Assembly: GCF_009923995.1 (NCBI RefSeq)
Contig: NZ_RFSK01000004.1
Span: 62,001 to 126,000 of the forward strand
Source: Janthinobacterium sp.
GTDB taxonomy: Bacteria; Pseudomonadota; Gammaproteobacteria; Burkholderiales; Burkholderiaceae_D
Direction of reading: 5' to 3'
DNA: 64,000 nt
Shown piece after piece: positions 22,473-55,533 of this stretch (the stretch's first letter is position 1; every line of letters starts with the position of its first letter). Below the pieces are notes generated by a model, which ran no database searches, was not told the origin of the DNA, and saw only the letters and a program-made list of their open reading frames with translations. A program made the translations under genes and the position numbers.

Positions 22473-22511
22473 CAGTTCTCCACCTTGATTGACGGGGAGG
22501 AGGGACGTGAC

Positions 22512-22799
22512 ATGGCAAATTTTGATGCTAATTCACTGCGGATACTTGAGCAAATTGAGGATGAATTTCGCAATCAGTACTGGATTATTCGAAATTCCAG
22601 ACGAACGAACTGGAGGGCGGTCAACCGCACGAGAATGTTGGGCGATTTTATGTACATGCTTGGGGTGCCTAAATGGGCAGTGCAACAGGCCCGATATTGT
22701 TTGCGTTTACGTGTATGTGAGCGTTGCTTTAAGGACGAGATTCGCTGTCATGGAATCTGTGATCGTGCGATGCGGGGAGACTTCGATAGCCAAAACTAG
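22512..22799 (+). CDS. Small hypothetical protein in the AT-rich island
   Basis: 95 residues (MANFDANSLRILEQIEDEFR...). I recognise no family. A strong GGAGGAGGG site 6 nt before the ATG supports expression. The C-terminal half has four Cys in a C-x2-C...C-x4-C arrangement (VCERCFKDEIRCHGIC) that could bind zinc. It lies between the Rep remnant and the putative abortive-infection operon and has lower GC than the host genes, so it is probably part of the same foreign segment. A hairpin/T-tract terminator follows. Confidence 0.5.
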   Translation: MANFDANSLRILEQIEDEFRNQYWIIRNSRRTNWRAVNRTRMLGDFMYMLGVPKWAVQQARYCLRLRVCERCFKDEIRCHGICDRAMRGDFDSQN

Positions 22800-22910
22800 A
22801 ATTGAAAAAGGAGATTTTCACAACTTTTTTTGCGGGTTTGCAACATTTGAAGTGGCTTTTAAGCAATTTTTGCGGTTAGAATGCGAGAAGTACCGCAGAA
22901 TTTCCTTAAA

Positions 22911-22933
22911 GCACATGTCTATTGTGCCTTTTT
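22911..22933 (+). terminator. Rho-independent terminator
   Basis: GCACA (22911-22915) pairs with TGTGC (22923-22927), followed by C-TTTTT. It separates the small cysteine-containing gene from the operon starting at 23008. Confidence 0.5.
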
Positions 22934-23007
22934 AAGTAGCTGTGGCCATTTTAATCTTAAAGTAAGGCCAAGTGAAAACACACATTTGACGCCTTAAAAA
23001 GGAATAT

Positions 23008-23826
23008 ATGTCAATGGAATTTGAGGTTGTAATAGATACCCAACAATATGCAGTAGACATGAAATCTGGATTGGATACATTGAAAGGTGTTTCTGATGCT
23101 ACACGCTGTATTGCCCAGACTGTGCTTGAACGTAAAGTTCCTGTAAGGAAAACGGCACACGCACCAGTGCGAACCGTAATGAAACGCACGTTTGAAGGGT
23201 CCTACGGTCAAAAATTTAGCATTGATGTATTTGATGATATTCTCCAAGCCAAACTTACCGCTATTGGACAATCTGCATTTTCTGAAATTATTTCTTTCTA
23301 TTTAAATGAATCTATATATATTGAGATAAAAGATTTGTCGGACAAGGCGCAAGAGGTAATAGATTCTCTTGGAAATTTATCGCAAGAACTTACTGATCGA
23401 TTACGTATTACTGCAGTAACGAATATTCATGCAGTTACAAAAAATTTCGGCCACGATGTAAGAGTTCAATATCGACAACGTGATGGCATAAAGCTTTTAG
23501 TGGAATTCAATGACGAGTCAGTAAGAACTCTTGATTTGGAGCGTTCTAACGAGGAAATTGAAATACTAGCTGCGATAACTCGATTTAATACTAAGACAGG
23601 AAATGGTCGGCTTCAAATAAAAGGGTCGAATGAAACCGTGGCCTTCGGATTTTCTACCGAGTATGAGAGTATTTCGATGATAGGGAAGAAGAAGTTTTCT
23701 ATAAATTTAAATGAAAACAATGGCATAAAGCCTGAATATCATTTGCATATGAAGCTGAAGGTTTCCCCGGTTCGGATTCACAGTCAAAAAATAGTGAAAT
23801 ACATTGTGGAGGGTTATGAAAGTTAA
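23008..23826 (+). CDS. Unknown protein, first gene of putative abortive-infection operon
   Basis: 272 residues, AT-rich codons, no family recognised. No signal peptide or membrane helix is visible. The N-terminal half is mixed alpha/beta; the C-terminal 110 residues are predicted beta-rich (VRVQYRQRDGIKLLVEFNDESV... and LHMKLKVSPVRIHSQKIVKYIV). AAAAAGGA lies 4 nt before the ATG. It overlaps the next gene by 11 bp, so the two are translated together. Given the partner's resemblance to putAbiC, it may be a sensor or regulator; this is inference from linkage alone. Confidence 0.7.
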   Translation: MSMEFEVVIDTQQYAVDMKSGLDTLKGVSDATRCIAQTVLERKVPVRKTAHAPVRTVMKRTFEGSYGQKFSIDVFDDILQAKLTAIGQSAFSEIISFYLNESIYIEIKDLSDKAQEVIDSLGNLSQELTDRLRITAVTNIHAVTKNFGHDVRVQYRQRDGIKLLVEFNDESVRTLDLERSNEEIEILAAITRFNTKTGNGRLQIKGSNETVAFGFSTEYESISMIGKKKFSINLNENNGIKPEYHLHMKLKVSPVRIHSQKIVKYIVEGYES

Positions 23827-24550
23827 TTGGTATAGATTTTTCGCCATAACTGCTATGGTCCTGGTGGGATTGACTTATATAGTCAAATTCTGCGGCTTTG
23901 GGGCATCCACTGCTGAAGATTTTGCGATATGGGGGCAGTTTGGCGACTATATGGGGGGATCGTTGAATCCCATATTAAGCTTCATATCTATTATGCTACT
24001 TATAAAATCGCTTAATCTGCAGAATGAAACAAATTTGGATTTGCGAAATGAATTAAGGGAGAACAAGCGAAATGAAAAGTTGAGGTCATTAGGACTTCTA
24101 TTTTTTAATATGATAAATTCGCAGAAGTTATTACTGGATAATTTTTCGTTTGATTTTCCCAATGGGGTGATGCCTGAGAAACGTGGTGCGGCAGCAATAA
24201 TGCACATTGAGGATGGAGTTCATCTTCTTCGGCAAGTAGGGGCAAAAGATACTGCAATTACTAATTTTCTGACGGCATTGGATTCAACAGATCAAATCTA
24301 TGGGATTCTTCGCGCTTTTTATATCACTGTAAAAATGGTTACTGAGAAACTAAGTGATGAAAATGATTTTACAGCCAACGATAGAAGGGAGCATTTATTG
24401 ACACTGATTAATTTTACGGACTACGCACAATTCAGACTTGTATTGATGGCCATTCAATTTTTAGACGTTCATGGGGCGAGATATCTCAAAGAGAATAAGG
24501 ACTTTATGGCAACACTAGAAGAAGTTAAATCGGGAATAGATCTTTATTGA
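23816..24550 (+). CDS. Putative phage abortive-infection (putAbiC-like) membrane protein
   Basis: 244 residues. Helix 1 (about residues 8-26) and helix 2 (about 45-62) bracket the motif W-G-Q-F-G-D-Y-M-G-G-S-L-N-P-I-L-S-F, which I associate with the putative phage abortive-infection family (putAbiC). A coiled-coil (LRNELRENKRNEKLRSLGLLFF) and an all-helical cytoplasmic domain follow. GGAGG sits only 3 nt before the ATG at 23816, inside the preceding gene; a TTG at 23804 is an alternative. AT-rich composition marks it as acquired. The defence role is inferred from family and context. Confidence 0.68.
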   Translation: MKVNWYRFFAITAMVLVGLTYIVKFCGFGASTAEDFAIWGQFGDYMGGSLNPILSFISIMLLIKSLNLQNETNLDLRNELRENKRNEKLRSLGLLFFNMINSQKLLLDNFSFDFPNGVMPEKRGAAAIMHIEDGVHLLRQVGAKDTAITNFLTALDSTDQIYGILRAFYITVKMVTEKLSDENDFTANDRREHLLTLINFTDYAQFRLVLMAIQFLDVHGARYLKENKDFMATLEEVKSGIDLY

Positions 24551-46952: not shown

Positions 46953-47387
46953 TCAATGCGGCAGATCGGTATGGCAGGCGCAGTCGTGGCCGCTGGCTGC
47001 TTCGGACAGGTTTTGCAGGATGGCGCAATCTTGCGACGGCTGCGGCTGGTCGCACTGGTGGCGCAGGGTCACCAGCTGCTGCTGCAGGGTTTGCAGGTTC
47101 GCCATCTGTTCGGCGATGCGCAGGATGTGGTGGTCCAGCAGCTCGTTGACGCTCTGGCAGCCTTCGGCCGGGTTGTTCTTGAACTCCAGCAAGGCACGGA
47201 TATCCGTCAGGCCGATCTGCAGCGAGCGGCAATGGCGGATGAATTGCAGCCGTTCCTGGTGCTCTTCCCGGTATTCGCGGTAGCCGGCGCTGTTGCGGCC
47301 CGGTTCCTGCAGCAGCCCCGCCTTTTCATAGTAACGCACGGTTTCCACGTCACAATCCGTCCGTTTGGCCAGTTCTCCGATACGCAT
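46953..47387 (-). CDS. cadR: Cd(II)/Pb(II)-responsive regulator CadR
   Basis: 144-residue MerR-family protein: HTH (MRIGELAKRTDCDVETVRYYEKAGLL), dimerisation helix, and Cys residues where CadR/PbrR proteins bind metal (GCQSVNELLDHH; QCDQPQPSQDC; C-terminal HDCACHTDLPH). The Cys/His-rich C-terminus is a feature of CadR. It is divergent from the metal P-type ATPase with a shared MerR-type operator. Cadmium, lead and zinc cannot be separated by eye. Confidence 0.9.
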   Translation of the reverse strand: MRIGELAKRTDCDVETVRYYEKAGLLQEPGRNSAGYREYREEHQERLQFIRHCRSLQIGLTDIRALLEFKNNPAEGCQSVNELLDHHILRIAEQMANLQTLQQQLVTLRHQCDQPQPSQDCAILQNLSEAASGHDCACHTDLPH

Positions 47388-47422
47388 GGCATCCCCTTTT
47401 CATTCTTTCGTGCAAATTCTGC

Positions 47423-47453
47423 TTGACCCTGTAGCGGCTACAGGGTTTCTAAT
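47423..47453 (+). promoter_or_regulatory. CadR operator/promoter of cadA
   Basis: TTGACC (47423-47428), a 19-bp spacer and TCTAAT (47448-47453). ACCCTGTAGC-G-GCTACAGGGT (47426-47446) is a perfect 21-bp palindrome of the kind known for CadR/PbrR/ZntR sites. It reads into the ATPase gene and lies 36 bp upstream of cadR on the other side. Confidence 0.85.
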
Positions 47454-47485
47454 GCAAGCATACACGAATCCTGAAGGATGATGCG

Positions 47486-49849
47486 ATGCCGCACGATACC
47501 CATAACCACGCACAGAATGATGCTTCCGGGCACGGCCACACCCACGGCCCAGACCACGGCCACGGGCACCCGCCTGCGCAGGGCCACGATCATGCGCACG
47601 GCGCGCAGCCGGCCACGGCGCCCAAGGCCGCCGGCTGCTGTTCCAGCCAGCACGCCTGCTCGTCCACGCCTGCCGCCCAGGCCGCGCCAGTGCTGCCCAG
47701 CGCCGCAATCGCCGGCGCGCGGACGGTGCAGTACCGCATCGTCAACATGGATTGCCCCACGGAAGAGCGGCTGATCCGCAACAAGCTGGCGAACATGGCC
47801 GGCGTCGTCGGCCTCGATTTCAACCTGATGAACCGCGTGCTCGACGTCCACCACACCCTGCCCTCGCTGGCCACGGTGGAAGCGGCCCTGCACGGCATCG
47901 GCATGCAGGCCGTGCCCATGGAAACGGGCGCCGCCATCGTGCGCGATCCGGCCGAAGGCAGCCTGTCCGGCCTGCAAAAAGGCTTGCTCGTCGTCTCCGG
48001 CCTGGCCGCGGCGGGCGCCGAGGCGCTGGCGTGGACGACGCACGCGGACAGCTCGCCCCTCGTCATCGCCCTGGCCCTGCTGTCCATCGCGACGGGCGGC
48101 TGGCCGACCCTGAAAAAGGGCTGGATCGCCCTGAAAAGTTTCACCCTCAACATCAATTTCCTGATGAGCCTGGCGGTTTTCGGCGCCATCGCCATCGGCC
48201 AGTGGCCGGAAGCGGCCATGGTCATCTTCCTTTTCGCCATCGCCGAACTGATCGAAGGCCTGTCCCTGAACCGCGCCCGCAACGCCGTGCAAAGCCTGAT
48301 GCAGCTGGCGCCCGACGTGGCGACCGTCGCCGGCGCGGGCGGGGCATGGCAGCAAGTACCGGTTGCCTCGGTAGCCATCGGCACCTTGATGCGCGTCAAG
48401 CCGGGCGAGCGCGTGGCCCTCGACGGCCTTGTGCAAAGCGGCGAGTCGTCCGTCAACCAGGCACCCATCACGGGCGAAAGCATGCCGGTCGACAAGACCG
48501 TGGGCGACGTCGTGTATGCGGGCACCATCAACGAACGGGGCGTGCTCGACGTCACCGTGACGGCCAACAGCGGCAACAGCACCCTGGCCAAGATCGTCAA
48601 GGTGATCGAGGAAACGCAGGGCAAGCAGGCGCCCACGCAGCGCTTCGTCGACAGCTTCGCCCGCTACTACACGCCCGCCGTCGTCGTCTTCGCCGTCCTC
48701 GTGGCCGTGCTGCCGCCCCTGCTGCTGGGCCAGCCGTTCATGGCCTGGGTCTACAAGGCGCTGGTGATGCTGGTCATCGCCTGCCCCTGCGCCCTCGTCA
48801 TTTCCACGCCCGTGACGGTGGTCAGCGGCCTGACGGCGGCCGCGCGGCGCGGCATCCTCGTAAAAGGCGGGCAATTCCTGGAAACGGGCTACCGCATCAA
48901 GGCCATCGCCGTCGACAAGACGGGCACCCTGACCATGGGCAAGCCGGCCGTCACAGACGTGGTGGCCATGGACGGCGGCGGCCGCGACGCCATCCTCCTG
49001 CTGGCCGCCAGCCTGGACGCCAACTCGGCCCACCCCCTGGCCGCCGCCATCGTCAAGGCGGGTCCGCCCGCCGACCGCCACCTGGCCGTCACCCAGTTTG
49101 CCGCCCTGCACGGGCGCGGCGTGCGCGGCAGCATCGCCGGCCAGACGTATTACCTGGGCAATGCCCGCCTGATGGCGGACCTGAACGTCCTCACGCCGGA
49201 ACTGCAAGCCATCCTGGCGGGCCTGGAACAGCAAGCCTACACGGCCATGGTACTGGCAACGCAAGCGGGTCCGCTGGGCGTGATCGCCGTGGCCGACGTG
49301 CTGCGTCCGACGGCCGCGTCCGCCATCGCCCGCCTGAATGCCCTGGGCGTGGCCACCGTGATGCTGACGGGCGACAACCTGCTGACGGCGCAGCGCATCG
49401 CCGCCGAGGTGGGCGTGAGCCTCGTCAAGGCGGAATTGCTGCCGGAAAACAAGCTCGATGAAATCAAGGCCCTGCAGCAGCGCTTCGGCGTGGTAGCCAT
49501 GCTGGGCGACGGCGTCAACGACGCGCCCGCCCTGGCGCAGGCCGACATCGGCTTCGCCATGGGCGCGGCCGGCAGCGACACGGCCATTGAGACGGCCGAC
49601 GTGGCCCTGATGGACGATGAACTGGGCAAATTGCCCGAGTTCATCAGCCTGAGCCGCCGCACGCGCGCCATCCTCGTGCAAAACATCAGCTTTGCCATCG
49701 GCATCAAGGCCGTCTTCTTCGGCCTGGCCCTGGCCGGCATGGCGACCCTGTGGATGGCCGTGTTCGCGGACGTGGGCGCCAGCCTGCTGGTGGTGGCCAA
49801 CGGCTTGCGCCTGCTGCGCGGCAGCAAGCAGGCCTCGTCCCAGGCATAA
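47486..49849 (+). CDS. cadA: Heavy-metal P1B-type ATPase (Cd/Zn/Pb exporter CadA/ZntA-like)
   Basis: 787 residues. A His-rich N-terminal tail (HGHTHGPDHGHGH...) and a CC/C cluster precede an HMA domain with metal site M-D-C-P-T-E. P-type landmarks follow: TGESMPVDK, the membrane CPC motif (about residue 433), phosphorylation site DKTGTLT (Asp about 477), SAHP and GDGVNDAP. It exports divalent soft metals from the cytoplasm. Regulated by the divergent CadR through the 21-bp palindrome. Confidence 0.92.
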   Translation: MPHDTHNHAQNDASGHGHTHGPDHGHGHPPAQGHDHAHGAQPATAPKAAGCCSSQHACSSTPAAQAAPVLPSAAIAGARTVQYRIVNMDCPTEERLIRNKLANMAGVVGLDFNLMNRVLDVHHTLPSLATVEAALHGIGMQAVPMETGAAIVRDPAEGSLSGLQKGLLVVSGLAAAGAEALAWTTHADSSPLVIALALLSIATGGWPTLKKGWIALKSFTLNINFLMSLAVFGAIAIGQWPEAAMVIFLFAIAELIEGLSLNRARNAVQSLMQLAPDVATVAGAGGAWQQVPVASVAIGTLMRVKPGERVALDGLVQSGESSVNQAPITGESMPVDKTVGDVVYAGTINERGVLDVTVTANSGNSTLAKIVKVIEETQGKQAPTQRFVDSFARYYTPAVVVFAVLVAVLPPLLLGQPFMAWVYKALVMLVIACPCALVISTPVTVVSGLTAAARRGILVKGGQFLETGYRIKAIAVDKTGTLTMGKPAVTDVVAMDGGGRDAILLLAASLDANSAHPLAAAIVKAGPPADRHLAVTQFAALHGRGVRGSIAGQTYYLGNARLMADLNVLTPELQAILAGLEQQAYTAMVLATQAGPLGVIAVADVLRPTAASAIARLNALGVATVMLTGDNLLTAQRIAAEVGVSLVKAELLPENKLDEIKALQQRFGVVAMLGDGVNDAPALAQADIGFAMGAAGSDTAIETADVALMDDELGKLPEFISLSRRTRAILVQNISFAIGIKAVFFGLALAGMATLWMAVFADVGASLLVVANGLRLLRGSKQASSQA

Positions 49850-49920: not shown

Positions 49921-50988
49921 ATGCCTCCTTTGCTCCGCCTCACCGTGCTGGCCGCCCTGCTGCTGCCGCTGACCTGCCTGCACGCCACAGGCCCGCCTCC
50001 CCCCGCTGCCACCGCCTGCGCCTCGCCCGCCCAGCCCCTGCGCGAACAGGGCTACGTGCCCATCAACGGCATCGGGCAATGGGTCACGATCACGGGCGCG
50101 GCCTGCCGCAATCCCGTCATCCTCTTCATCCATGGCGGTCCCGGCAATGCCTTGAGTCCGTATGCGGATGCCATCTATGCGGGCTGGCAGCAGGATTACA
50201 CCCTGGTGCAGTGGGACCAGCGGGGCGCGGGCATGACGTACGCGCAGCAGCGCCCGTCCGACGACGTGCCCCTGACGGTGGCGCAGATGCGCGACGACGG
50301 CATCGCCGTGGCCGAATACCTGCGGCAACGCCTGGGGCAGGACAAGGTCATCCTGATGGGCAGTTCCTGGGGCTCGATCCTGGGCGTGCACATGGCCAGG
50401 GCCCGGCCCGACCTGTTCCACGCCTATGTGGGCGCGGCACAGGTGGTCAATGCGCGGCAGAACGAGGCGGGCATGTACCGGGAGGTTCTGGCGCTGGCGC
50501 AGGCGGCCGGCGATACGGCCACGGTGGACAGGCTGGCGGCGCTGGGTGCGCCGCCATGGCGCGACCCGCGCAACTTCGGCATCCTGCGCCGCTTCGACCG
50601 CAAATATGAAGCGCTGGCTACGGATGCGCCGCCGAAACACTGGTGGCAGCCGGCACCGTTCTACGCCACGCCGGCAGCCCTGGCCGCCGCCGAGGCGGCC
50701 GACGATTATTCCTACCTGCAATTCATCGGCCTGCACGGCGACGGCATGTTCGCCAGCATCGACCTGCCCGCGCTGGGCACGCGCTTCGACTTGCCCGTGT
50801 TTCTCGTCATGGGCGAAGCCGACCTGCTGACCTCGCCCGCCATCGCGCGCACCTATTTCGACAGCATCACGGCACCGGCGAAGGGGTTTACCGTGGTGCA
50901 ACGGGCCGGGCACGACCCGAACCAGGCCATGCTCGACGCGCAATGGAAGGTCCTGCGCGAGCAGGTGGCGCCGATGACCGGTCACTGA
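49921..50988 (+). CDS. Secreted alpha/beta hydrolase (proline-iminopeptidase-like)
   Basis: 355 residues with a signal peptide (LLRLTVLAALLLPLTCLHA). Oxyanion motif FIHGGPGNAL, WDQRGAG, and nucleophile elbow GSSWGS, the signature set of the S33 prolyl-aminopeptidase branch; the catalytic Asp is probably in GEADLL and the His in RAGHDPN. Periplasmic or secreted peptidase or esterase is predicted. It is the last GC-rich gene before the second AT-rich island. Confidence 0.82.
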   Translation: MPPLLRLTVLAALLLPLTCLHATGPPPPAATACASPAQPLREQGYVPINGIGQWVTITGAACRNPVILFIHGGPGNALSPYADAIYAGWQQDYTLVQWDQRGAGMTYAQQRPSDDVPLTVAQMRDDGIAVAEYLRQRLGQDKVILMGSSWGSILGVHMARARPDLFHAYVGAAQVVNARQNEAGMYREVLALAQAAGDTATVDRLAALGAPPWRDPRNFGILRRFDRKYEALATDAPPKHWWQPAPFYATPAALAAAEAADDYSYLQFIGLHGDGMFASIDLPALGTRFDLPVFLVMGEADLLTSPAIARTYFDSITAPAKGFTVVQRAGHDPNQAMLDAQWKVLREQVAPMTGH

Positions 50989-51017
50989 TTTATCTCAGCA
51001 AGCCACCAGTGTACATG

Positions 51018-51037
51018 GGATGCACAGCATTGCATCC
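51018..51037 (+). terminator. Hairpin after the hydrolase gene
   Basis: GGATGCA (51018-51024) pairs with TGCATCC (51031-51037), 6-nt loop, no T-tract. From here to 51320 the sequence turns AT-rich and holds no gene I can support; it marks the left edge of the second island. Confidence 0.4.
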
Positions 51038-51320
51038 TATGAGCTTGCTTTCCACTCATAGACGGTTGTGTGAGCTATTGCTGCCATCGTTGATTTTACT
51101 GAGATTATTTTCTTTACTCCAAATAATGAACCGTGTAACTGGAGAAAAATATTGGCAACCTGGATGAGATTAGATAGTGCTACTATTCCTATAATGGACG
51201 GAAATGTAAAAAAACTCGATATATGAAGAAAAAGTTCCCGCAATGGAATCACCATATGCATAATTTCGCAGAAGAGATGCATATTGAGCAATAGATAGAA
51301 TGTCTCACTCAAGGATACTC

Positions 51321-52430
51321 ATGTCATTTGAACTGAAATACGCGATCATTCATAGCTTTACCAAGGAATCAAAACAGTCCTACGCCACCAATATAGTAAA
51401 AAAAACGGCACTACTTAAGAATGAACTTCCGGCGGTGATGTCGCTTGTGCAGGGGGTCTCCGCATTGTTAGGAAAACCCGGCAATATTCTTAGTTATGGG
51501 CAATTTTCGAATGATATGCGGCAGGGGAAATTCCCTGCTGAATTTGATTGCTATTCTTCAAAACCATTGGATGCAGCTGCATTTATTTCCATGAGTCATC
51601 TTGCAGTTGATGAACTAGCAGCCGCTTCCGAGTCAGAGTCATTTTCTACCGGCGGACATATTTTGGTTTCATATTATTTGATTGATAATAAGAAATTTAT
51701 ACTTGTTGCCATGATCAAACAACGAGGCGGGGTTAGTCTTGATAAAGATTACGTGCCGATTGCTGTTACAGAAATAGATTTATCTAAGGTTCATCAAGCT
51801 GCACGTATCAATTTATCGAGATACGTTGAAGTTGCGGCGCAACCAGGACTTTCTAATGATGACGATGAAGATGTAGTGGAAGAACGAACCTATTTGTCTT
51901 TTGTCGGTCAAGGCACCCACAATTTGGCATCGGGTTACTTTGTCAAAGCATTGGGATGCACAAAAGGAATTTCATCTTCACGAGCAACTGGAAATGTAAT
52001 ATCTGCTGTCCGCACATTTTTTTCTAGCGCAGAACTGAAACCACATCGAAGTGCAGCATGCAATGGTGTTATTGCCTATTTAAAAAAGAAACTTGATGCG
52101 AAAGAAAATGCAGTCCTCAATGACTTGGTTTACGCGGCAATAGCCACGCTTACAGAAGGACAAAGCGCAATAATTGACCAACTGAAGGAATTCTTAAATG
52201 ATGAACGAACAAAAATTCCTGCCGAGTTTGCAATTCATGCACCTACCCTTCGAAAGAAAACTATGATTAAGGGGGAGACTGCAAACTGGACGATGCAATT
52301 TGAGCAGGGTATGTTAGGACTAACCGCAAATGCAGCCATCATATATAATGAAGATAAAAAAACACTAACATTCACCAACCTAGGGGAAAAATTGATCTCG
52401 GATATTGAATCTGAACTCAAGCAAAGATAA
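51321..52430 (+). CDS. Nucleoid-associated protein, NdpA/YejK family
   Basis: 369 residues. The N-terminus (MSFELKYAIIHSFTKE) and a central block matching the 37-kDa nucleoid-associated protein family (HILVSYYLIDNKKFILVAMIKQRGG...EIDLSKVHQAARINLSRY; FVGQGTHNLASGYFVKALGC) support this call. E. coli YejK is about 335 residues and binds nucleoid DNA. AAGGA lies 6 nt before the ATG at 51321; the ATG at 51300 has none. The gene is AT-rich, unlike its neighbours, and the next gene begins 2 bp after its stop. A sensing or DNA-binding role in a two-gene module is inferred. Confidence 0.8.
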   Translation: MSFELKYAIIHSFTKESKQSYATNIVKKTALLKNELPAVMSLVQGVSALLGKPGNILSYGQFSNDMRQGKFPAEFDCYSSKPLDAAAFISMSHLAVDELAAASESESFSTGGHILVSYYLIDNKKFILVAMIKQRGGVSLDKDYVPIAVTEIDLSKVHQAARINLSRYVEVAAQPGLSNDDDEDVVEERTYLSFVGQGTHNLASGYFVKALGCTKGISSSRATGNVISAVRTFFSSAELKPHRSAACNGVIAYLKKKLDAKENAVLNDLVYAAIATLTEGQSAIIDQLKEFLNDERTKIPAEFAIHAPTLRKKTMIKGETANWTMQFEQGMLGLTANAAIIYNEDKKTLTFTNLGEKLISDIESELKQR

Positions 52431-52432
52431 AA

Positions 52433-53659
52433 ATGTTCTCTAAGATCGTTGAACTATATAGAGCACTAAATTTCCCAAAGGTTGAGGGGAACAAGTTCTT
52501 CTTTAATGGTGCCATTGACCAATCAATAGCTTCGCTAGTTGAGGAAGTGGATAAACTTGCTAGCCATTTTGGGTCGTTTTCGCATAAGGAAATTTATGAA
52601 CTTCACTTAGATGTCGAATTTAATCTGCCAGCTTCCGAATCAGGAAGATTTTATCAAAATTTCGCGGAATTTCTTCTATTTACACCCACACTGAATTTTG
52701 GCAGTATTTCAGAGGAATTTTATATATGTGACATCGACTACTACTCCAAAGATGTGGCAATTCCTGATGCAATGCGTAAACTTGAGACACTATGTAGGTT
52801 TATTAGAGCAATTTCCAAGTTAGCTGTTCAAAATAGCTTCCAAATAGAAAATACATCGCGCGATAATAGATTGGTTTTTGTTGTGGCGGCTGATGGGAAG
52901 TCGCCAGCGAAGACATTGCTGATAGATATCAAGGTGACAGAAGAATTATTGGAATATTGTTTGCCGCATATAAAATTTTTGGAGTCATTACTTTCCAAAA
53001 ATAGAAAAAATGATGTACATGTTGAAGAGCGACTGACTATTATGCGATTGGCGATTGCAGATATATTAAATTCAGTAGTGGGCGAAGTAGAGCGATTCCA
53101 GTATTTGGTAAAAAATTGGGGCGATGTTCTGTCAAAGTATCATCATAATTTTTTGGCATTCATCCATCAATACTCTTTTGAAAAAGTTCGCAAGGAAATC
53201 GCCACAACGGAAATAGAACATGCCACAAAACTCAGCGCAGTTCTCGGCGATATCTCTGGTAAGTTGCTGGCACTGCCTGTATCGTTGGCAGCAATTATAC
53301 TATTGCGAAAAGCTAATTCAAGCGAAGAATTTGCAATTGGCTTTATCGGTTTGGCTTGCGTATCTTTAATTTTTATTGGCATTTTGATTAATCAATGGTT
53401 ACAGGTGCGTCGTTTGCGCGGAAGCTTTGAAGTTATTTTCTCTCAGTATGACGTATCGAAATTTCCATTAAAATTAAGCAAACCAATAAGTAATGCAAGA
53501 AGAAATGCTGATATTCAATATTTTACTTTAATTGCCACATTTATAATTTTCGGAGTCCTTGCACTATTACCACTTGGAGGCGCAATCTATGTATTAAATG
53601 ATCGCTCACAATTACGTTTGAGCGAGATATGCCTTTTGATCGCAAGTCAATTCCCCTAG
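52433..53659 (+). CDS. Unknown protein with three C-terminal membrane helices, partner of NdpA-like protein
   Basis: 408 residues, AT-rich, no family recognised. The first about 275 residues are soluble, mixed alpha/beta then helical (VEERLTIMRLAIADILNSVVGEVERFQYLV). Hydrophobic segments follow at about 278-293, 299-320 and 363-386. A soluble sensor-like domain followed by membrane helices is the layout of many membrane-acting abortive-infection effectors. Starting 2 bp after the NdpA-like stop, it is almost certainly co-translated. Function is unknown; a defence role is a hypothesis. Confidence 0.75.
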   Translation: MFSKIVELYRALNFPKVEGNKFFFNGAIDQSIASLVEEVDKLASHFGSFSHKEIYELHLDVEFNLPASESGRFYQNFAEFLLFTPTLNFGSISEEFYICDIDYYSKDVAIPDAMRKLETLCRFIRAISKLAVQNSFQIENTSRDNRLVFVVAADGKSPAKTLLIDIKVTEELLEYCLPHIKFLESLLSKNRKNDVHVEERLTIMRLAIADILNSVVGEVERFQYLVKNWGDVLSKYHHNFLAFIHQYSFEKVRKEIATTEIEHATKLSAVLGDISGKLLALPVSLAAIILLRKANSSEEFAIGFIGLACVSLIFIGILINQWLQVRRLRGSFEVIFSQYDVSKFPLKLSKPISNARRNADIQYFTLIATFIIFGVLALLPLGGAIYVLNDRSQLRLSEICLLIASQFP

Positions 53660-53931
53660 CGCCATGAACAGTGCTTCGGAAATTTTCCGCCTTCTTTATT
53701 TCCTGAAGGAAATTAGTTTCAGACATAGTAGATAAAAACTAAAGTTTCTGTGATTGTCAGTACCTCCCCTATTTTCAGAGTATGTTTAAGCTATTACAGC
53801 TAACCTGATAACGTAAAATGGACACCATATGAATGGATGAATGGAGCGGGCAATACGCACTTGCTTTGATCCGGCCAATGCATTGTTTCCGGCAAAGCCA
53901 AGCAGTAATGCACACTTTGCCCCCTACATGG

Positions 53932-54741
53932 CTATGGCATGGCATCCCTGTCGATCCGCGCCGTCAGTCGGCGCTCGAAATCCTGCAGTTCCGCCCCGTT
54001 GAGGTCCGATATCAGCTGATAATGCATGCCGGCGCGGCTCCAGCGTATCAGGTGATAGCCCTGCCGCGTGCTGGCGCGGGGCGGCGCCTCTGCCGCGTCT
54101 GGCCAGACGTACAGGTTCAGCACGTGCTGGTGCCGGCGGTACGCGAGGGCGGCGACGGGACGCTGCCCGATATAGTCGAGGCGCCCGCCTACCAGGGGAT
54201 AGCCTTCCTGCGCCAGGTCCACCACGGGCGGTGAAAAGTCGAGCTTGCCGCTGAACCACGGCTTGACGGTGTGCTGGTCGGACGATGCCACGTCGGCCAG
54301 GTGGTTGGGCAGCAGCGAACGGAAATGGCTGGCGACGATCTCCTGCTCCAGCCGCTCCGTGTCGGAAGGCGCGGACAGGTACAGGGCCAGGGTGACGGCC
54401 AGGGCGGCCGTGCTGGCGCTGGCCACGCCGAAGTTGATCCACGCCCACGGCAGTTGCGCCCAATGCCGGCCTCGGCGCGCCTCTTTCTCCTCTTGCGCCT
54501 CCTGTTTCATCCCTTTCGCCTCGTCCCGCAACGCCTCCTGCAGGCGCTGGCGCAGGGCGGCCGGCGCCGCATGCCGCGTGCCATGCGTGCCGACGGCCGC
54601 GCGCAAGGCCTGCATCTGCGCGCTGGCCCTGGCGCAGTCCGGACACCGGTCCAGGTGCTGGCGCAGTTGCGCCGCCGCCTGGGCATCGAGTTCGCCATCG
54701 GCCAGGGCGGACAGCTTGCGGCGGGATTCCTTGCACTCCAT
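53932..54741 (-). CDS. Anti-sigma factor with zinc-finger motif
   Basis: 269 residues. N-terminal zinc-binding anti-sigma domain (MECKESRRKLSALADGELD...LRQHLDRCPDCA, the H-x3-C-x2-C motif), one membrane helix (about residues 105-125) and a periplasmic domain. It should hold the ECF sigma factor encoded just upstream. The ATG at 54741 begins 1 bp after the sigma stop; an ATG at 54753 overlapping the sigma gene is an alternative. The periplasmic part (HTVKPWFSGKLDFSPPVVDLAQEGYPLVGGRLDYIG) resembles the usual ChrR/RsrA-type partners of this class. Confidence 0.87.
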   Translation of the reverse strand: MECKESRRKLSALADGELDAQAAAQLRQHLDRCPDCARASAQMQALRAAVGTHGTRHAAPAALRQRLQEALRDEAKGMKQEAQEEKEARRGRHWAQLPWAWINFGVASASTAALAVTLALYLSAPSDTERLEQEIVASHFRSLLPNHLADVASSDQHTVKPWFSGKLDFSPPVVDLAQEGYPLVGGRLDYIGQRPVAALAYRRHQHVLNLYVWPDAAEAPPRASTRQGYHLIRWSRAGMHYQLISDLNGAELQDFERRLTARIDRDAMP

Positions 54742-54742
54742 T

Positions 54743-55291
54743 TCATTTCTCATCGGTATGTTGTTTCAGGTAGTCAAGCAGCAGCTTGCGTCCGCGCGCC
54801 AGGCGCGACATCACGGTGCCCAGCGGAATGCCGACGATGTCCGCAATCTCCTTGTACGAGCAGTCGTCCATCTCCTTCAGGACCAGCACTTCCCTGAAAT
54901 GCCGCGGCAGCGCTTCCAGGGCGTGATCGACGGCGTCCTTCACGTCGGCCCGGGCGAGGATGTCTTCCGGGTTGCCGCCCGCCGCCGGCGCCATGCCGCA
55001 TGCCCCGTCGTCCTGGCCATGGAGCTCCTCGTCAAAGCCGATGTCGCCCTGTTCCGCGCGGTTGTCGCGCAGGGAGGTGTAATACGTGTTGCGCACGATC
55101 GTCAGCAGCCAGGCGCGTGCGCCATCGCCATGGTAGCCATCCATGAAGCGGTAGGCCCGCAGGAACGCCGTCTGCACCAGATCCTGGGCATCCTGGTCAT
55201 TGCGCGTGAGCCACCGTGCCAGGTTGTAGGCGGCGTCCAGGTGAGGCAAGGCCATTTTTTCAAAGTACCTGGTTTTATCGATGTCACTCAA
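54743..55291 (-). CDS. ECF RNA polymerase sigma factor
   Basis: About 182 residues: region 2 (LPHLDAAYNLARWLTRNDQDAQDLVQTAFLRAYRF) and region 4 (LPRHFREVLVLKEMDDCSYKEIADIVGIPLGTVMSRLARGRKLL). The start is taken as TTG 55291 (M/L-SDIDKTRYFE), the N-terminus expected for this group; ATG 55255 would cut into region 2. It probably drives its own operon and the divergent cytochrome/phosphoesterase/cupredoxin genes. Confidence 0.85.
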   Translation of the reverse strand: MSDIDKTRYFEKMALPHLDAAYNLARWLTRNDQDAQDLVQTAFLRAYRFMDGYHGDGARAWLLTIVRNTYYTSLRDNRAEQGDIGFDEELHGQDDGACGMAPAAGGNPEDILARADVKDAVDHALEALPRHFREVLVLKEMDDCSYKEIADIVGIPLGTVMSRLARGRKLLLDYLKQHTDEK

Positions 55292-55533
55292 ATGAACACC
55301 CGTCAGCCTGTCTATCGTCTCGGTCTCTCTTGCTAAGACTCGCCTTGCCCGCCGTTTATTCCCGCCGCCGCCACTTTTTTTGCGCCGTGCCGGTATTTCA
55401 CGGCCAGCCGCCCTCGCCGGCAGGAAAACTGGCGCAAACGGGAATATTTTCCGCGCCTTTGGAGTTATAGCACTTGCAGGCCCCGGCTGCATCGCGCCGG
55501 TGCCAGGCAACTGCAAAACGAAAGGATGCCGAC

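Follow-up and report, generated by a model that had tools for sequence, protein, structure and literature searches.

A horizontally acquired pair of NA37 and membrane protein genes in Janthinobacterium sp., a probable divergent DS-1-type anti-phage module

Relation of the gene pair to DS-1

In a 64,000-nucleotide stretch of the Janthinobacterium sp. contig NZ_RFSK01000004.1 (hereafter the window), an AT-rich block carries two plus-strand genes, the first (51,321–52,430) for a nucleoid-associated protein of the NA37/NdpA family (YejK-like, PF04245) and the second (52,433–53,659) for a 408-amino acid membrane protein. We propose, with a probability of roughly 0.6, that this pair is a horizontally acquired, divergent DS-1-type anti-phage module in which the NA37 protein serves as sensor or inhibitor and the membrane protein as effector. 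That the pair is a DS-1-type defense module is highly probable, and this division of roles is slightly favored.

The first protein matched the NCBIfam model DS1_1 (NF053868, "nucleoid-associated anti-phage protein") with 93.4 bits (E = 1.4e-26, residues 65–358 of 376), and the second matched DS1_2_antiphage (NF053869, "anti-phage protein") with 87.6 bits (E = 8.3e-25, residues 71–342 of 408); the curated equivalog cut-offs are 330 and 315 bits, respectively. The available part of the DefensePredictor paper (PMC13092281, 2026) reports 42 validated units named DS, with validation against phage, and places the YejK nucleoid-associated domain among domains new to defense; from the names of the NCBIfam models, we infer that its YejK-domain unit is DS-1. 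The initial annotation had suggested an undescribed defense or conflict system. The link to anti-phage defense gains support from the DS-1 matches of both halves and from prophage and plasmid carriage, but the word "undescribed" does not stand, because both proteins match models of DS-1, which, as far as the available text of PMC13092281 goes, is already in print.

The window pair was 28–31% identical to an E. coli prophage pair, and among 27 diverse membrane protein homologues, 26 matched the DS-1 models. Prophage or phage pairs of E. coli and Klebsiella scored at most 98.7 bits with DS1_1 and 103.2 bits with DS1_2. Because three E. coli loci (at most 98.7 and 99.8 bits) scored about as low as the window pair, the experimentally tested DS-1 was not recovered. 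None of 398 genomes of the phylum exceeded the DS1_2 cut-off, and 10 matched below it; PADLOC 2.0.0 gave no match for either protein. Judged by sequence, the window pair is a divergent relative of DS-1, neither an equivalog nor the tested system, and it extends DS-1 to more distant proteins.

Both reading frames are open, and the NA37 stop codon at 52,430 is followed by an ATG at 52,433, so that the two genes lie 2 bp apart, as first described. The NA37 open reading frame (ORF) has two candidate starts, 51,300 and 51,321; the latter is preferred because a putative Shine-Dalgarno-like AAGGA lies upstream of it on the plus strand (51,311–51,315) and aligned NA37 relatives mostly begin at or near the 51,321 methionine. 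Assignment of this protein to the NdpA/YejK family was confirmed by PF04245 (E = 1e-41, 143.9 bits, cut-off 24.6), and the YejK equivalog model gave 98.1 bits, below its cut-off of 341. The top structure match was 9be2, which was also the sole solved relative by sequence (E = 1.3e-28). At E 1e-3, the host genome contained no other NA37 gene.

For the membrane protein, no Pfam family scored above its cut-off (SieB, PF14163, E = 0.078, below cut-off); its earlier description as unrecognized thus holds for Pfam but not for NCBIfam, given the DS1_2 match. The proposed layout of a soluble N-terminal domain (about residues 1–270) and three C-terminal membrane helices agreed with hydropathy, which peaked at residues 273–291 (weak in the window protein), 301–319, and 370–388, and at 273–291, 300–318, and 370–388 in the mean of 64 aligned proteins. 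The hydropathy and charge pattern suggests that the N-terminus is inside. The structure model had a predicted local distance difference test (pLDDT) score of 85.3 and a predicted template modeling (pTM) score of 0.63, and a sequence search of the PDB returned nothing better than E = 0.92. Homologues at E 1e-3 numbered 67 among 7995 scored candidates, 63 of which formed alignment A1; alignment A2 comprised 66 sequences of the 120 listed among 157 matches. Among 27 relatives, a single one hit a flippase-like model (E = 5.5e-4).

Pairing, mobility, and acquisition

When species genomes were scanned for the membrane protein family only, 41 loci emerged, in 38 of which a same-strand NA37 gene lay upstream of the membrane gene, 37 of these within 30 bp. 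At one locus (L032), the NA37 gene was 251 bp away and its ORF was short; no NA37 gene was present upstream in L027–L029, where the membrane genes of two Pseudomonas strains are truncated, and L006, L013, and L031 held split copies. The 41 loci are not all independent, because they are mostly from Pseudomonas. The membrane profile was rare and patchy in the host's family, matching 11 of 392 genomes, and all 11 were among the 17 genomes (385 searched) with an NA37 gene above cut-off. Distance matrices of the two proteins correlated with r = 0.92 (37 pairs, L075 excluded), a value reached in none of 2000 permutations. These results bear out the claim of a true two-gene module, homologues of the second protein co-occurring with NdpA-like genes in nearly all loci.

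On plasmids, the membrane protein matched 8 of 72,556 records, with an NA37 gene directly upstream in all four examined (H1, H4, H5, and H6). Two of 50,697 phage records matched, both from Klebsiella and both with an NA37 gene upstream. DNA of one Klebsiella phage pair matched 39 of 5426 E. coli genomes at 60–80% identity, none over 80% of its length; DNA of the other was covered to at least 80% in 14 of the 5426 at about 76% identity, and some part of it was matched in 1090 E. coli genomes (matches unsorted). The three examined E. coli loci look like prophage: two pairs (L099 and L100) adjoin antiterminator Q in the direction of lysis/holin genes, with a methyltransferase gene intervening in L099, and the third (L101), in a transposable Mu-like prophage, precedes a putative holin. 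Viral contigs contained no relative of the window membrane protein and seven loci for an E. coli relative. Type I restriction adjoins one locus (L040), and a NACHT protein neighbors the pair on one plasmid. Five large neighbors, picked by size and compared with the PDB, comprised a tetratricopeptide repeat protein, an efflux pump, an RNA helicase, an iron receptor, and one without a match (L074).

The block holding the pair (50,989–53,930, no strand assigned) is 2942 bp long with a guanine-cytosine (GC) content of 0.39, and it fills the space between the stop codons of convergent hydrolase and anti-sigma genes. As noted at the outset, the pair is lower in GC than its flanking genes: 0.405 for the NA37 gene and 0.373 for the membrane gene versus 0.692 and 0.687 in two neighbors, with third-position GC (GC3) of 0.34 and 0.335 versus 0.871 and 0.85. 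The rest of the window has a GC content of about 0.67. Besides the pair, the single ORF of at least 80 amino acids in the block encodes 91 residues from a TTG start (51,037–51,312, minus strand); there is no further ORF of at least 100 amino acids. We found no convincing terminal repeats of the block, only 7-base matches between its ends, and no tRNA gene in the window.

Searching 40 genomes of the genus for the anti-sigma protein gave matches with E values of 1e-20 or lower in 8, including the host; five loci with anti-sigma identity of 75–78% were used for comparing the flanks, and two at 47–55% were excluded. The aligned flanks are separated by 41, 42, and 38 bp in L062, L063, and L065, respectively, versus 2965–2968 bp in the window. 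In L066, the hydrolase is shortened and the aligned flanks are 31 bp apart; in L064, no hydrolase was detected, and the site is occupied by about 1.4 kb of other sequence. The anti-sigma/sigma region is syntenic in all five loci, and neither protein of the pair had a match in any of them, so the pair is not conserved at this position in all relatives. Because three same-genus genomes hold about 40 bp at the same place, the block is an insertion; it was inserted as one unit and horizontally acquired, as had been supposed from its composition.

The left flank is a host gene outside the module for an alpha/beta hydrolase resembling proline iminopeptidase (49,921–50,988, plus strand; TIGR01250, E = 3.1e-12, below cut-off), and the right flank is the host anti-sigma factor gene (53,932–54,753, minus strand; antisig_RsrA, E = 1.6e-14, below cut-off), beyond which lies an extracytoplasmic function (ECF)-type sigma factor gene (about 54,743–55,396; sigma70-ECF, TIGR02937, above cut-off). 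Farther left, at 46,953–49,849, a MerR-type regulator (by eye) is divergent from a heavy-metal P-type ATPase, and both are present in all five same-genus loci. Four of the 64 one-kb bins of the window have a GC content below 0.45, three of them at the block. The pair is not the sole AT-rich stretch of the window; a second one at 22,485–24,550 (GC 0.38 at 23,001–24,000) contains overlapping ORFs of 272 (23,008–23,826) and 248 (23,804–24,550) amino acids. The N-terminal part of the latter product is hydrophobic by eye, and we take it to resemble putative abortive-infection (putAbiC) proteins, a likeness unconfirmed by PF16872, which had no match in the host genome at E 1e-3 and none in the controls either.

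NA37 genes ahead of other partners

All 17 NA37 genes above cut-off in the 385 genomes of the host's family had an effector-like partner: 11 of DS-1 type, 2 with a RelA/SpoT domain, 2 of GapS4 type, and 2 other membrane proteins. An 18th family genome (G230) contained only NA37 pieces with stops, below cut-off. In the wider order, NA37 was above cut-off in 51 of 399 genomes; the survey was reduced from 56 rows to 53 places by excluding the window's own copy and one decayed copy and merging two rows. Seven places were of DS-1 type, four of RelA/SpoT type, and one of a second membrane type, and 41 were without a recognized partner. The initial view of NdpA as ordinarily a solitary gene of the chromosome does not hold in the family genomes sampled. 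The partnerless genes have a GC content close to that of their own loci, and some are followed by ORFs. Four of these (L164, L182, L198, and L205) have ORFs of 282–427 amino acids closely 3' of the NA37 gene, which may be further partners.

RelA/SpoT-type partners followed the NA37 gene in six loci (L122, L125, L212, L213, L214, and L216) and on two plasmids (L218, 2913–4993; L219, 2910–4993), the two genes overlapping by 1–4 bp. In the two family loci (L122, 4204–6290; L125, 4633–6686), the partner matched PF04607 with E = 1.5e-14 and 1.6e-13 and weakly matched the PADLOC candidate PDC-S33; a PDB sequence search with one RelA/SpoT partner gave no match at E 1e-3. These arrangements look like an NA37-gated alarmone-type toxin operon, in which, by analogy with known toxic synthetases, the partner is probably the active toxin.

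GapS4 is a Gamma-Mobile-Trio system. In two family loci (L121, 4670–7786; L123, 4703–7826), an NA37 gene lies directly 5' of GapS4a and GapS4b homologues in a three-gene operon. The locus tested with models scored 256.9 bits for GapS4a, just under the cut-off of 270, and 319 bits for GapS4b, over the cut-off of 300; the second locus is 63–65% identical to it. The link between NA37 and GapS4 rests on these two loci, since GapS4b had no match on plasmids at 1e-10.

A second membrane family of 475–508 amino acids follows NA37 genes in L124 (3389–5942), L126 (4663–7249), L215, and plasmid L220 (2535–5050). The family loci encode proteins of 483 and 508 residues with three C-terminal hydrophobic helices, and the second membrane family as a whole has two or three where examined. 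DS-1-partner profiles compared with a three-sequence profile of this family gave 75.8% (alignment A5) and 13.0% (A1), and a distant relation of the two membrane families is possible. With blastp, the effectors of the other NA37-headed operons had no sequence similarity to the window membrane protein. An NA37 gene overlapping by 4 bp was found with two of the three examined plasmid RelA/SpoT matches (of five) and with one of the two examined plasmid matches of the second membrane type (of four); the plasmid cases without an NA37 gene were one distant match (25% identity) and one short ORF adjoining an IS26 copy.

In a tree of 88 NA37 proteins (L181, a fused frame, and L191, a contig-end fragment, were excluded), the RelA/SpoT (6), second membrane (3), and GapS4 (2) groups each formed one side of a branch. 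The 38 DS-1-type rows need two changes, since a 21-gene unpaired clade lies among them, and the 39 unpaired rows need three. Deep joins among the groups other than DS-1 are unsure because long branches meet in that part of the tree.

From these results, we tentatively suggest that NA37/NdpA could serve in bacterial immunity as a general plug-in sensor or inhibitor, encoded first in a compact mobile operon and controlling interchangeable effectors (two membrane families, RelA/SpoT-type synthetases, and GapS4-type genes). On this view, DS-1 would represent a single lineage within a broader NA37-gated family, and chromosomal YejK that lacks a partner might be either the parent of this DNA-state sensor or a domesticated version of it. 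The occurrence of several unrelated effectors predicts that NA37 recognizes a shared cue, perhaps DNA topology or topoisomerase, and gates whichever effector follows; if true, this would give an immunity role to a long-known, obscure nucleoid protein family. The new part is the combination of NA37 with interchangeable effectors, the DS-1 system itself being already in print; we did not find this pattern in the literature searched, which was mostly not aimed at it and covered subscription journals and preprints thinly.

Proposed mode of action, alternatives, and known systems

According to the accessible text of PMC10053502, E. coli YejK inhibits gyrase and topoisomerase IV, and StaR activates topoisomerase I, activities by which NA37 proteins touch DNA and topoisomerases. 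In the mechanism that we favor, the NA37 protein would sit on DNA in the cytosol, where it would either hold the membrane protein inactive or detect infection, for example through phage DNA or through altered DNA topology or topoisomerase state. The soluble domain of the membrane protein probably faces the cytosol, and upon infection this protein would disturb the inner membrane, halting the infected cell ahead of phage release. NA37 is the more likely sensor or inhibitor because it is the constant gene ahead of several unrelated effectors. The membrane protein is the more likely effector because NA37 is constant and, by neighborhood, the toxic component in the RelA/SpoT operons is probably the partner. 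The roles of NdpA-like sensing and membrane effector put forward initially thus receive indirect support, from NA37 genes that also head operons with unrelated effectors.

Several points weigh against this proposal. Both DS-1 cut-offs were missed, the window scores being about 28% of them, and the activity tested for DS-1 may not carry over because the scores are so far below. The available part of PMC13092281 gives neither mutants nor a mechanism for the YejK unit. DNA binding by the window NA37 protein is assumed from YejK and StaR. Fold searches with the model of the membrane protein gave nothing from the PDB or from viral structures at E 1e-3, which leaves the effector role without structural precedent. 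Neighborhoods, partly surveyed, were mixed and often housekeeping, with no consistent defense island. Broken, split, or truncated copies occurred in 7 of the 41 loci (L006, L013, L027, L028, L029, L031, and L032), and the partner in one family genome (G091, counted among the 17) is shortened, so some copies are decaying. Finally, the 41 of 53 order places without a recognized partner indicate that NA37 proteins also work alone.

The roles may instead be reversed, as in Kiwa, which combines a membrane sensor with a DNA-binding effector according to the available part of PMC12904381: the membrane protein would sense infection at the inner membrane, and NA37 would bind incoming phage DNA and block replication or late transcription, with no membrane damage. 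We consider this unlikely. KwaB chains ranked after YejK in a fold search with NA37, but their scores were within noise and the chains were not independent; profile comparison of NA37 with KwaB (hhalign) gave probabilities of 0.6% and 0.4%, and a search of 30 NA37 proteins with PF16162 gave no match up to E 10 under HMMER's filters. Reversed roles would also leave the NA37 genes ahead of RelA/SpoT-type proteins unexplained. Membership in Kiwa itself, suggested by the KwaB chains, was dropped after the failed profile comparison and the missing PF16162 match.

Less probable still is an operon resembling toxin-antitoxin systems that serves stability or mobile-element competition, phage defense being a side effect. 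Gene order and the 2-bp spacing or 4-bp overlap resemble such operons, plasmid and prophage carriage fits them, and the RelA/SpoT partners, in which the domain was found, can be likened to toxic small alarmone synthetases. This explanation has to treat as secondary the validation of DS units against phage that the available text of PMC13092281 reports. It is very improbable that NA37 regulates mobile-element genes and that its partner is an unrelated passenger. A precedent is NdpA2, which together with TprA lifts MvaT repression of the PAPI-1 transfer genes, as the accessible part of PMC8565334 describes, and numerous plasmids carry NA37 genes (matches at E 1e-3 in 199 of the 72,556 records); against it, the block has no other ORF of at least 100 amino acids and hence no transfer gene for NA37 to regulate, and NA37 gene and partner stay together (38 of 41 loci; r = 0.92). 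Ancestral host genes of odd composition can be practically dismissed, as the empty site in three same-genus loci, the presence of the membrane protein in just 11 of 392 family genomes, and the GC3 of 0.34 in the pair versus 0.85–0.87 in its neighbors contradict them and no supporting point was found.

Among known systems, Kiwa (KwaA-KwaB) likewise has two components, a membrane protein and a cytosolic DNA-linked protein, but NA37 and KwaB have no detectable sequence relation, and gene order and sizes differ; in six Kiwa loci (L076–L081), a membrane-type ORF of 191–207 amino acids, presumably KwaA, lies 5' of KwaB. E. coli YejK and S. pneumoniae StaR share family and fold with the window NA37 protein (9be2), whereas the AT-rich window gene is mobile and has a partner, and its product falls below the YejK equivalog cut-off. 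The NA37-RelA/SpoT and NA37-GapS4 operons resemble the window pair in that NA37 comes first and an effector-like gene follows, with a few-bp overlap or nearly so; their effectors have no blastp similarity to the window membrane protein, and their NA37 proteins lie in separate clades. The closest likeness is to DS-1, which also consists of two genes, for an NA37/YejK-family protein and an anti-phage partner, and both of whose models are matched by the window proteins over most of their length; the pair differs from it in reaching little more than a quarter of the curated cut-offs, and the gene order of DS-1 is taken from the model names.
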